From the NCBI GenBank assembly GCA_017440145.1, contig JAFSHU010000149.1:1-42944 (forward strand): 42,944 bases of DNA. Direction: 5' to 3'. Of this stretch, positions 24,698 to 27,862 are shown in pieces; the stretch's first letter is position 1; every line of letters starts with the position of its first letter. The stretch comes from Bacillota bacterium. Lineage in GTDB: Bacteria; Bacillota; Dehalobacteriia; UBA4068. A model generated the notes under the pieces. That model had not been told where the DNA came from, searched no databases, and saw only the letters and a program-made list of their open reading frames with translations. The translations under genes were made by a program, and so were the position numbers.

Positions 24698-24709
24698 GGA
24701 GGAAAGAAC

Positions 24710-25501
24710 ATGCTCCGTGTTTTGGTAAATGGTGCAGCCGGGAAGATGGGACGCTCTATGTCCGCAGGTATTCTGGCTGAGGAAGATATGCAGCTGGTGG
24801 CGGCTGTGGATCAGTGCTGCCTGGGCGCTGACCTGGGTGAGCTTTGCGGCAGCGGACGCTGTGGCGTGGCTGTGGAAGCGGATCTGGCTGCTGCCATTGA
24901 AAAAAGTCAGCCGGATGTAATGCTGGATTTCACGGTTCCCGCTGCGGTGATGGACAATCTGCGGGTAGCTCAGACACATAAGCTGGCGGCGGTTGTTGGC
25001 ACCACCGGTTTGACGAAAGAAAATCTGGAGGAGCTGCGGGCAAGCTGCGAAAAAAGCGGTGCGCCTGTTTTTGTGGCCAGCAATTTTGCCCTGGGCGCAG
25101 TGCTGCTGATGCGTTTTGCGGCAGAAGCTGCCCGTTATCTGCCGGAATATGAGGTTCTGGAGATCCACAATGAGCGGAAGCTGGATGCCCCCTCCGGGAC
25201 GGCGCTCACCACCCTGAATATGATGGAGGCGCAGCGTTTGGAGGATTCTGTCGGTGCGGCCAACACCCGGGAGAGCGTTCCCGGCTGCCGCGGTGGGGCT
25301 TATGCAGGCAGCCATGTGCACAGCCTGCGCCTGCCCGGCGCGGTTGCCATTCAGGAAGTGATCTTTGGTGCGCCCGGCCAGATGCTGAGTCTGCGCCATG
25401 AGGCCACTGCCCGGGATTGCTTCTATCCCGGCGTTGCCCTGGCCCTGCGAAAGATCAAAGAGCTGAAGGGACTCACCCTGGGTCTGGAGCATCTCCTTTA
25501 A
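24710..25501 (+). CDS. dapB: 4-hydroxy-tetrahydrodipicolinate reductase
   Basis: DapB (263 residues) makes tetrahydrodipicolinate for lysine and diaminopimelate. The nucleotide-binding loop is NGAAGKMGR (residues about 6-14), VVGTTGL follows, and the catalytic site is EIHNERKLDAPSGTA, with His and Lys in the expected spots. TAAGGAGGAAAG precedes the ATG. In spore formers the pathway also feeds dipicolinic acid, the spore-core compound, which suits this neighbourhood. Confidence 0.97.
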   Translation: MLRVLVNGAAGKMGRSMSAGILAEEDMQLVAAVDQCCLGADLGELCGSGRCGVAVEADLAAAIEKSQPDVMLDFTVPAAVMDNLRVAQTHKLAAVVGTTGLTKENLEELRASCEKSGAPVFVASNFALGAVLLMRFAAEAARYLPEYEVLEIHNERKLDAPSGTALTTLNMMEAQRLEDSVGAANTRESVPGCRGGAYAGSHVHSLRLPGAVAIQEVIFGAPGQMLSLRHEATARDCFYPGVALALRKIKELKGLTLGLEHLL

Positions 25502-25732
25502 TCTGCGGAATCAGATAGAGAGCAAACGCCTGCCGAATTGGCGTGATACTCTTAATGGAGTATTCACGCTAAACCAGGATTGCCCTTGCGGGCAAGTTAT
25601 GAGTTATGAGATACTTCGTATCGTTATGATTGGCTTCGCCAAGTTTTAGGCTACAAAGACCATCATATCATAAACAAGCTCATAAGGGCGAGCAAAGCGA
25701 GCCTCATCACTCTAAACTGAGGAGCAACAGAA

Positions 25733-25776
25733 AAAGAGAGGACATTTCGGCGTTTAAACCGATTTGTTCTCTCTTT
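25733..25776. repeat. Long imperfect hairpin with symmetric internal loops
   Basis: The arms pair as AAAGAGAG, ACA and TCGG on the left with CCGA, TGT and CTCTCTTT on the right. One unpaired base and two unpaired bases face each other at matching places, around an 8-base loop. The symmetry suggests selection at RNA level. Confidence 0.65.
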
Positions 25777-25809
25777 CTGCTTGTAATATGGGTTTGGGCT
25801 TCGCCCGAT

Positions 25810-25833
25810 TTGCATTTGACTAGTCAAATGCAA
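25810..25833. repeat. Perfect 24-bp palindrome
   Basis: The 12-base half TTGCATTTGACT is followed at once by its exact reverse complement, with no spacer. It sits next to a GGGC-TTC-GCCC mini-hairpin. It contains a SpeI-like ACTAGT centre. Possible readings: a binding site for a dimeric protein, a mobile-element end, or part of a folded RNA. Confidence 0.85.
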
Positions 25834-26023
25834 TGCTCGCACTTGGTGTAAATTTCAAATTCTCCGCTAAGAACAATCACCATTTCAGCAGGCGTTTTTG
25901 TAAGCTGGTGCTTTCCTGGTGACTTATGGGAAAAGGTTTTGGCTTTTCCGGGATATTTGGGCTTGCAGACAAGAAAATTTTTGTGCCGCAGCCTGCATCC
26001 CAAAAGCCGGGGGAGTAGAGAAG

Positions 26024-26063
26024 CGAAAAAGAAAGCGGCAGCTCCCATCTTCGGGCTGCCGCT
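26024..26063 (-). terminator. Intrinsic terminator of the murI transcript
   Basis: On the minus strand AGCGGCAGC (from 26063 to 26055) pairs perfectly with GCTGCCGCT (26042 to 26034) across a 12-base loop, and TTTCTTTTT follows (26033-26025). It lies 10 bases after the murI stop. Confidence 0.92.
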
Positions 26064-26072
26064 CTTTGCCTA

Positions 26073-26870
26073 TTAATCCGAAAGCTGCTCCATGGCGCTG
26101 CGGAACAATTTCTCTGCCAGCGGGATCCAGCTTCCCATTTCATCGCTGCTGCGGAATTCCAGGCGTCCTTTGCCGTCCTTTCGCCGCAAGCCGGCCTCCT
26201 CCAGCCGCCGCCCGGTTTCCCGGGCTGTTCCCGGCCCGCCCTGGAAGATTTCCACCGGGCTGCCGATCACCTTTCGGATGCTTCTTTGCACCAATGGGTA
26301 GTGGGTGCAGCCCAGAACCACAGCATCCGGCGGCGGGCTGAGCGCCTCCCGAAGCAGGTTTTTCAGCAGAGCTTCCAGCTCCGGCCCTTCCAGAATGCCT
26401 TTTTCGATCATCTCGACCAATCCGGGGCAGGGGAGGGGCAGCACCTCTGCTTCGCTTTCATAGCTCTTCAGCAGACGCTGGAATTTGTTCTCCCGCAGGG
26501 TAACAGGGGTCGCCAGCACCAGCACCCGGGGGTGCGCCCCGCTCAGGGCAGCGGGCTTCAGGGCCGGTTCGATGCCGATCACCGGCTGATCCGGGTATTT
26601 TTGCCGCAGCTGCTCAATGGCCGCACTGGTGGCTGTGTTGCAGGCCACCACCAGAGCCTTGGCGGAAAGCTCCTCCAGGAGCAGCTCTGCCCTTTCCAGG
26701 GTCAGGGCGCGTACCTGCTCCACGCATTTTTCCCCATAAGGGGCGTTGGCAGCATCCCCGTAATAGATATAGTTTTCCTCCGGCATCAGCCGAATCAGCT
26801 CCAGCAGAACCGTAAGGCCGCCCAAGCCGGAATCCAGCACTGCCACGGGGGCATTTGCATCATGCTTCAT
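26073..26870 (-). CDS. murI: Glutamate racemase
   Basis: MurI (265 residues) makes D-glutamate for peptidoglycan by a two-cysteine mechanism without a cofactor. The N-terminal VAVLDSGLGGLTVL carries the conserved Asp-Ser, the first catalytic cysteine is in VACNTATS (about residue 74), and the second in LGCTHYPL (about residue 185). ATG 26870 gives a normal N-terminus; an upstream ATG at 26945 would add 25 unrelated residues overlapping the neighbour. It lies 41 bases downstream of the dehydrogenase gene and is probably co-transcribed. Confidence 0.95.
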   Translation of the reverse strand: MKHDANAPVAVLDSGLGGLTVLLELIRLMPEENYIYYGDAANAPYGEKCVEQVRALTLERAELLLEELSAKALVVACNTATSAAIEQLRQKYPDQPVIGIEPALKPAALSGAHPRVLVLATPVTLRENKFQRLLKSYESEAEVLPLPCPGLVEMIEKGILEGPELEALLKNLLREALSPPPDAVVLGCTHYPLVQRSIRKVIGSPVEIFQGGPGTARETGRRLEEAGLRRKDGKGRLEFRSSDEMGSWIPLAEKLFRSAMEQLSD

Positions 26871-26911
26871 AAGCCTGGCCCTCTTCCCTTCGGAAAATGG
26901 GGAATGCTTCC

Positions 26912-27862
26912 TTAAATCTGGTTGATCGGGGTGCCGGCCAACCACTGACGGATGTTCTCAAAGACGATGATGGCCCGCTTGACCATGGATTCCCGGGTGG
27001 CAAAGGCCACATGGGGCGTAACCACTGTCCGGGGGCAATCCCGCAGGGGCTGATCCTCCGGCAGCGGCGGCTCTGTATCAAAGACATCCAGCCCGGCACC
27101 GGCGATGCGGCCCTCCTGCAGAGCAGCAGCCAGAGCGGCGCTGTCCACCACGGGGCCGCGGGCGGTATTGATCAGGATGGCGTTGGGTTTCATCAGGGAG
27201 AGCATTTTTTCATCGATCAGGCCCTTGGTTGCAGGGGTGACCGGCACATGCAGGGAGACGATGTCGCTTTCCTGCATCAGCTGCTCCAGAGGCATGTATT
27301 CAATGCCCATGGCCAGAGCTTCTGGGCGCTGGCTGCGGCTGTAGGCCACCAGACGGCAGCCGATGGCTTTGGCGATCTCTGCGGTTTTCAGGCCGATGGC
27401 GCCGGTACCCACGATGCCCAGGGTTTTTCCGGCCAGCTCAAAACCGATCAGGCCGCTCTTGTCCTTTCCAGCCCGGCAGGCAGCATCACAGGCGATCACA
27501 TTGCGGGAGACAGCCACCATCAGGCCGATGGCCAGCTCTGCCACGGCATTGGTGGAGTAACCGGAAGCATTGGAAAGCAGGATGCCCCGGCTTTTGCAAT
27601 AGTCCACATCCACATGATCCACGCCGGTGAAGCCGATGGAGATCATTTTCAGATTCGGGCAGCGGCTCAGCACATCCTCCCGCAGGGGCTGATTGGCCAG
27701 AATGAGGATTTCTGCATCGCCAATGCGTTCTGCCAGTTCATCCGCAGTGGCAGCCCGGTCATTGTAGGCGGTGAAGCTGTGGCCCGCAGCTGTGAGAAAG
27801 CTGCTGACTTCTTCTAATTTTTCCGGGCTGATGCCCAGGGGTTCCATCAAGACGATTTTCAT
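26912..27862 (-). CDS. D-isomer-specific 2-hydroxyacid dehydrogenase
   Basis: An NAD(P)-dependent oxidoreductase of 316 residues that reduces 2-oxoacids to D-2-hydroxyacids, or the reverse. The dinucleotide loop is GIVGTGAIG (about residues 146-154), the catalytic Arg is in INTARGPVVD, the Glu in DVFDTEPPLP, and the His in TPHVAF. Substrate cannot be read from sequence; lactate, glycerate and phosphoglycerate relatives are all possible. ATG 27862 follows AAAGGAG. The same frame stays open to 28468, but that extension is antisense-like noise over the next gene. Confidence 0.92.
   Translation of the reverse strand: MKIVLMEPLGISPEKLEEVSSFLTAAGHSFTAYNDRAATADELAERIGDAEILILANQPLREDVLSRCPNLKMISIGFTGVDHVDVDYCKSRGILLSNASGYSTNAVAELAIGLMVAVSRNVIACDAACRAGKDKSGLIGFELAGKTLGIVGTGAIGLKTAEIAKAIGCRLVAYSRSQRPEALAMGIEYMPLEQLMQESDIVSLHVPVTPATKGLIDEKMLSLMKPNAILINTARGPVVDSAALAAALQEGRIAGAGLDVFDTEPPLPEDQPLRDCPRTVVTPHVAFATRESMVKRAIIVFENIRQWLAGTPINQI

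Follow-up and report, generated by a model that had tools for sequence, protein, structure and literature searches.

Between dapB (+ strand) and a convergent murI-like gene (- strand), the stretch of DNA analyzed here (the window, all 42,944 nt of contig JAFSHU010000149.1 from a Bacillota bacterium) carries a single copy of a DNA element that is small, looks mobile and belongs to Clostridia of the gut and rumen type. This copy is seated in the loop of the dapB terminator, whose stem encloses it. Related copies occupy the loops of various intrinsic terminators. These are often bidirectional and lie mostly between genes that converge, and the host terminator stem is split by the element and closes around it. 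The inner structure, comprising an array of a short unit R, an array of its complement R′, mini-hairpins, a long hairpin and a palindrome, is conserved through compensatory change. We consider it probable that these copies constitute a family of short non-autonomous mobile repeats, MITE-like or BOX-like, that targets terminator loops in Clostridia and related bacteria.

An element enclosed by the dapB terminator stem

A first-pass annotation of this sequence had described a hairpin-packed intergenic element at 25502-25870, but overlooked its main point, the enclosure of the element by the dapB terminator. The hairpin stretch itself stands, and the core at 25541-25881 is a strongly folding hairpin array. 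For 25502-25900, the predicted RNA fold reaches -145.1 kcal/mol versus -100.8 (sd 4.8) kcal/mol for shuffled sequences (z -9.2, matched by 0/100 shuffles), and the DNA fold of the same interval has a z of -7.6 (0/100 shuffles). The outermost inverted repeat found between 25300 and 26100, the interval covered by our inverted-repeat listing, pairs 25524-25541 with 25880-25897 (18 nt, 89%) next to a T-run at 25895-25899, and is in part outside the interval originally proposed. The parts of the window copy are as follows.

24710-25501, + strand: dapB (dihydrodipicolinate reductase; Pfam DapB_N 1.1e-32, DapB_C 1.6e-26), the gene whose terminator is occupied
25524-25537, + strand: host terminator, left stem arm (AAACGCCTGC plus GAA), from the inverted-repeat listing and the joined-flank fold
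25541-25881, + strand: element core, 341 nt, by profile boundaries; the true ends possibly lie up to about 3 nt farther out on either side
25541-25560, + strand: left terminal inverted repeat (GCGTGATACTCTTAATGGAG), by profile match and by pairs 3-20/428-446 of alignment A1; it also forms a hairpin of its own with 25560-25569
25579-25594, + strand: first of the small hairpins, whose loop reads TTGC on + and GCAA on -
25596-25629, + strand: three R units GTTATGA (25596-25602, 25603-25609, 25623-25629)
25610-25622, + strand: hairpin GATAC-TTC-GTATC, flanked by R units
25630-25642, + strand: hairpin TTGGC-TTC-GCCAA (GAA loop on -)
25668-25710, + strand: decayed R complements TCATAAA, TCATAAG and TCATCAC around GGCGAGCAAAGCGAGCC
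25726-25881, + strand: conserved right module (profile score 142.7)
25733-25776, + strand: long hairpin within the right module, covarying (AAAGAGAGGACATTTCGG...CCGATTTGTTCTCTCTTT; helix 4)
25796-25806, + strand: hairpin GGGC-TTC-GCCC (helix 5)
25810-25833, no strand: perfect 24-bp palindrome TTGCATTTGACTAGTCAAATGCAA (helix 6)
25862-25881, - strand: right terminal inverted repeat (reverse complement GGTGATTGTTCTTAGCGGAG)
25884-25899, + strand: host terminator, right stem arm (TTC plus GCAGGCGTTT); its end is the T-run at 25895-25899
26073-26945, - strand: murI-like convergent gene of the Asp/Glu racemase family, given as its longest frame (Pfam Asp_Glu_race on 26076-26900, 1.4e-20)

Several earlier observations on these substructures are borne out. 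The palindrome at 25810-25833 is indeed free of a spacer, with two 12-nt arms that are 100% complementary and 0 nt between them, and the long stem pairs 25733-25750 with 25759-25776 (83% complementary) with symmetric mismatches, as had been noted. A shared TTC loop, also proposed, is present in 3 of the 6 core hairpins recovered by a scan for perfect stems of at least 4 bp with loops of 3-5 nt. The window copy retains three R units and 0 exact R′ units, its right array having decayed.

The 18-nt outer repeat was considered as a transposon end and rejected, as it corresponds to the stem of the host (dapB) terminator. Its exact sequence occurs in 22 viral contigs, approximately the number estimated for chance, and no other copy exists among 101 genomes comprising the window's own and its relatives. 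The 73-aa open reading frame at 25630-25851 runs through the hairpins and is not regarded as a gene; it matches no Pfam family and has no tblastn match in phages or plasmids.

Dispersed homologous copies in Clostridia

A scan of 84,980 genomes, for which the accidental 73-aa frame served as the DNA probe, yielded two real DNA relatives. One, on SVHY01000039.1 (L078), is 75% identical to the window element over 355 nt; the other, on JAFVQW010000024.1 from a sheep colon Clostridia metagenome-assembled genome (MAG; G102), is 87% identical over 164 nt, and this genome contains many copies. When one G102 copy was used to search 294 genomes (G102 and its relatives), with two candidates per genome scored and no more, 110 genomes, G102 counted, matched at E<=1e-3. 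A pattern for the element ends was found at 11, 23, 21, 26 and 20 places in five genomes, versus 1, 1, 0, 0 and 0 for the reversed control. Matches frequently break off at contig ends (for example, L155, L160, L176, L193 and L199), and thus the copy numbers of the element in MAGs are probably underestimated.

The situation in the window's own genome, a MAG that is 84% complete, is different. Only one copy is detected there, even at E<=10, the additional matches being chance 14-18-mers plus one 16-mer that occurs three times elsewhere. The earlier expectation of many copies therefore fails for this genome and holds for those of the relatives, in which the copies are numerous and dispersed, as in MITEs. 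Searching 43 genomes of the window's class by BLASTN, its own included, revealed no element copy in the other 42, and the matches recovered outside the window's genome in this set and in the 101 genomes, 18-28 nt in length and mostly in coding DNA, were attributed to chance. Also dismissed as chance was a match in G007 that overlaps the left boundary, which lies within a gene downstream of dapB in that genome; tblastn with the encoded protein, which we take to be dipicolinate-synthase-like, detected neither a remnant of it in the window nor a copy elsewhere in the window's genome. In three relatives (L046, L042 and L047), a gene that matches the one in G007 comes after dapB in the region retrieved. 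Plasmids, phages and viral contigs contained no family member at the sensitivity used; matches in E. coli phages (28-30 nt, E 0.1-0.4) are not family members.

For comparative analysis, 60 further regions were fetched, and complete copies were cut from them by two profiles blind to the flanks. The 81 resulting left/right pairings were reduced to 47 distinct full copies of 298-431 nt once duplicates of the same place, incomplete right modules and cores shorter than 250 or longer than 600 nt had been dropped. These copies are short and, as judged from the window frame without Pfam or tblastn matches, have no coding capacity, which is characteristic of MITEs. Of the three observations that the first-pass annotation had set against its own reading (a single copy, no homologues and no covariation), two fail, since homologues and covariation (see below) both exist.

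Host terminator stems close around the element

When the core is removed from the window copy and its flanks are joined, a textbook terminator results (-20.3 kcal/mol). The same holds in general. Across 46 copies (L174 was excluded because its right flank spans 23 nt), joined flanks fold with a mean of -18.53 kcal/mol, compared with -8.03 kcal/mol for mispaired flanks, and the lowest of 5000 permuted means was -10.15 kcal/mol. A first flank score was swamped by the A/T runs common to these sites and placed 20/46 copies above the 99th percentile of mispaired flanks. Weighting by GC raised this number to 30/46, with a mean complementarity of 13.43 for own flanks versus 6.65 for mispaired ones (largest of 2000 permuted means, 7.85). 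The own partner was strictly the best for 33/46 flanks and not strictly the best for 13/46; flanks that pair poorly include those of L169, L115, L185, L163, L159 and L078. A T-run lies to the right of the stem in 46/46 copies and an A-run to the left in 43/46. The runs are heavier on the right in 14 copies, equal in 14 and heavier on the left in 18, and we claim no orientation bias.

Flank pairing involves letters that are specific to each site, whereas the interior of the element is conserved across copies. Given stem letters that vary among copies around this conserved interior, insertion into pre-existing terminators is the simplest reading of these data, and the placement suggests that a terminator can serve such elements as a landing site and stay intact. 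We recognized no published report of a repeat residing in terminator loops, although our search covered mainly the open literature and is weak evidence of absence.

Gene directions assigned by codon usage indicate that convergent genes flank 33/43 copies (3 of the 46 being too short for this test), and 17/19 when both calls are confident. This rule counts the window copy as non-convergent, a mis-call given that its neighbors are convergent by gene identity (Pfam); an earlier rule based on the longest open reading frame, which gave 28/46 convergent, mis-called the window as well. The abundance of convergent neighbors raises the chief rival to targeting, in which the element inserts anywhere and survives only in the gaps between convergent genes, which are short and full of terminators. 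Insertions do the least harm in such gaps, and survivorship could yield part of the placement pattern. However, in most copies the flanks pair across the element and the junction falls in the loop, for which mere proximity to a terminator is insufficient: chance placement within a gap would mostly strike one side of a hairpin or spare the hairpin altogether. As survivorship leaves the loop-located junction unexplained, we judge it decidedly unlikely as the full account.

Compensatory change and mirrored DNA-type hairpins

The element is bounded by terminal inverted repeats of approximately 20 nt of the GCGTGATRYYCTTAACGGAG type, whose mean Smith-Waterman (SW) score is 10.6 versus 4.8 for shuffled sequences, as expected of a MITE. 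A consensus structure of 48 pairs was derived from alignment A1, which comprises 23 of the 47 copies, picked for the variety of their R units. Overall, 95.8% of its cells are paired, with 95.7-98.5% for the terminal-repeat helices 1 and 2. Cells changed on both sides number 73, compared with 21.6 in shuffled alignments and no more than 12 after sliding the partners, although these counts are not independent because the copies are related. Covariation is concentrated in the stem 40-47/163-170 (7/8 pairs) and in helix 4, the long right-module hairpin, in which 7/14 pairs have changed on both sides. Among five measures, the number of further pair types was the one that did not exceed the shuffles (37 versus 37.4).

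In the left half of the element the unit R, 7-9 nt long, is repeated, and the right half contains its complement R′. Seven R classes are distinguished among the 47 copies: GTGAAGTT (23 copies), GTGATAT (6), GTTATGA (5), TGAAATC, TGATGTT and CGATAT (4 each) and TGAATTG (1). At least two R units on the left together with at least two R′ units on the right occur in 40/47 copies, 0/940 shuffles and 11/1570 cross-class pairs, and R/R′ is exchanged as a block between subfamilies.

The loops of the small hairpins situated between R units are mirrored between the strands. On the left, three-base loops of the form G.A number 49/78 on the - strand and 1/78 on the other strand, and on the right, 23/50 on the + strand and 3/50 on the other; for four-base loops, G..A accounts for 37/53 on the left and 28/42 on the right, with 0 and 0 on the other strand, all of these being counts from related and hence non-independent copies. 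GNRA loops make up 21/37 of the left and 9/28 of the right G..A loops, the remaining 16/37 and 19/28 being non-GNRA. GNA loops are described as unusually stable DNA mini-hairpins (PMC6479982, in a passage citing Yoshizawa 1997). The mirrored loop strands suggest selection for folded DNA.

The strong RNA fold, the covariation and the location at transcript ends could be those of a structured regulatory RNA or a long, specialized terminator that has a variable closing stem and does not move. Yet Rfam returns no match to 24700-26400 at E<=1, the copies follow unrelated genes (tpiA, pgsA and dapB), and closing stems differ among copies that are more than 80% alike inside. In addition, the G..A loops are often non-GNRA, left loops show the G..A form solely on the opposite strand, and occupancy differs among species. 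The loop types, mirror symmetry and unrelated neighboring genes thus favor selection on DNA folding or on mobility over an RNA gene, and we regard an immobile RNA as very improbable. The first-pass annotation had left the choice between a non-autonomous mobile element and a structured RNA; the former is the best reading, given the dispersed homologous copies, the terminal inverted repeats and the lack of a gene inside, and the latter is argued against.

Occupied and plain sites at the same genes

For gene families assigned by Pfam, the same gene ends were compared between species. The 3′ end of pgsA is occupied in G102 (L108) and, by a different subfamily, in G115 (L225), and has plain terminators in L207, L211, L223 and L203. 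Similarly, the end of tpiA carries an element in G102, the right end of an element in G130 (L204) and plain terminators in several others. No exact empty site was found among these relatives, whose terminators at the same genes have diverged stems; these data therefore document variable occupancy of the same place rather than an exact empty site.

According to boundary tests, the junction is no more than about 3 nt away from the profile end on either side. No consistent target duplication was observed, left ends reading TTA, TAT or ATA and right ends CATT, CTTA or CTAT. Neither a transposase nor a gene-bearing copy was seen in five genomes or at the unpaired ends inspected. In the five genomes, we recognized no gene framed by element ends in inverted orientation at a spacing of about 1-3 kb. 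In L178 the left end, less its outermost letters, reads GCGTGATACTCTTAACGGAG, and the right end, trimmed likewise, reads TAGCGTGATGTCCTTAACGGAG.

Possible modes of movement and known systems

If terminator loops are targeted, a transposase or a hairpin-processing enzyme that is specific to the element and acts in trans would recognize the folded terminator as a single strand or cruciform and insert the element into its loop, with R/R′ and the DNA-type mini-hairpins serving as the enzyme's substrate. Given the compact fold and paired ends of the element, the host stem could still form in the transcript and termination would survive; insertion at such a site would consequently be nearly neutral. 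A broader proposal, which we offer tentatively, is a class of mobile DNA that reads DNA shape: an extruded terminator hairpin would be recognized and a self-folding cargo placed in its loop with termination surviving, and the mirrored R/mini-hairpin arrays would form the substrate, R and its complement changing together with enzyme specificity. Short hairpin units in the element's own loops would then reflect the same habit at a smaller scale.

REPINs, which depend on RAYT enzymes, consist of hairpin units paired in inverted orientation and dispersed in trans, and the arrays of the element resemble them. The element might instead be REPIN-like, with a Y1/HUH (RAYT) enzyme mobilizing it on single-stranded DNA, as its two inverted arrays of a short motif plus hairpin and its loops of the DNA mini-hairpin type, mirrored between strands, would suggest. 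Against this, terminal repeats of about 20 nt are more like those of MITEs mobilized by DDE transposases, and REPINs differ from the element in length and modules; we consider such an origin unlikely. Compared with REPINs (PMC8049555), the element is longer and modular, its terminal repeats are long, and one of its conserved modules is of a non-REP kind.

Among known repeats, the family comes closest to bacterial MITEs and to the pneumococcal repeats BOX, RUP and SPRITE. The latter three are described as small, interspersed, folded sequences with paired terminal repeats and many intergenic copies, BOX being modular as well (PMC3049150). According to the same source, one repeat of this set is enriched near the 3′ ends of convergent genes, the three insert into one another, and SPRITE is itself terminator-like. 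Placement in host terminator loops is not described in the portions of that account relied on here, nor are R/R′ arrays, and the sequences and hosts are different (PMC3049150). Bacterial MITEs, as portrayed in the relevant parts of PMC10969869, likewise have terminal inverted repeats, contain no gene, are intergenic and dispersed, and give rise to stem-loop transcripts; the element differs in its G+C-rich hairpins and terminator-loop placement, and neither a parent insertion sequence nor a target duplication was found for it. Group IIC introns are also mobile and use a terminator-type DNA stem-loop as their target (PMC7923331, PMC10190682). However, those sources, in the passages considered, place their insertion downstream of the stem or into attC stem-loops, rather than in the loop as here, and describe a ribozyme and usually a reverse transcriptase, whereas the window element, tested as a group II intron, has no Rfam match at E<=1 (PMC7923331, PMC10190682).

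If terminators are safe landing sites, this would explain how compact bacterial genomes accept many insertions without loss. The family would also provide a natural test of how far the arms of a terminator can be parted and still function, and points to a candidate enzyme that recognizes hairpins in DNA. Such elements may also account in part for assembly breaks, short peptides that are over-predicted and terminators that are mis-called in gut MAGs.

Additional sequences were observed within or beside certain copies. A second hairpin of approximately 40 nt (GGGGTTCCCC...TTTGGGGG) lies within L086, L094, L103, L126, L133, L194 and L250, often in a hairpin loop, and a short hairpin of the AAGTTGC/GCAACTT type is found in loops of L113 and L187. 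L127 (genome G167, contig C38) contains two elements with different R classes that are seemingly nested, the second beginning within the long right-module hairpin of the first. Finally, the 16-mer noted above in the window's genome, AGTTATGAGTTATGAG, is present at three other sites there (L052, L053 and L054, on contigs C159, C52 and C30), followed by CTTA(A/G)AGTTATGAG and having the R unit GTTATGA in common with the window element; it may represent another repeat family.
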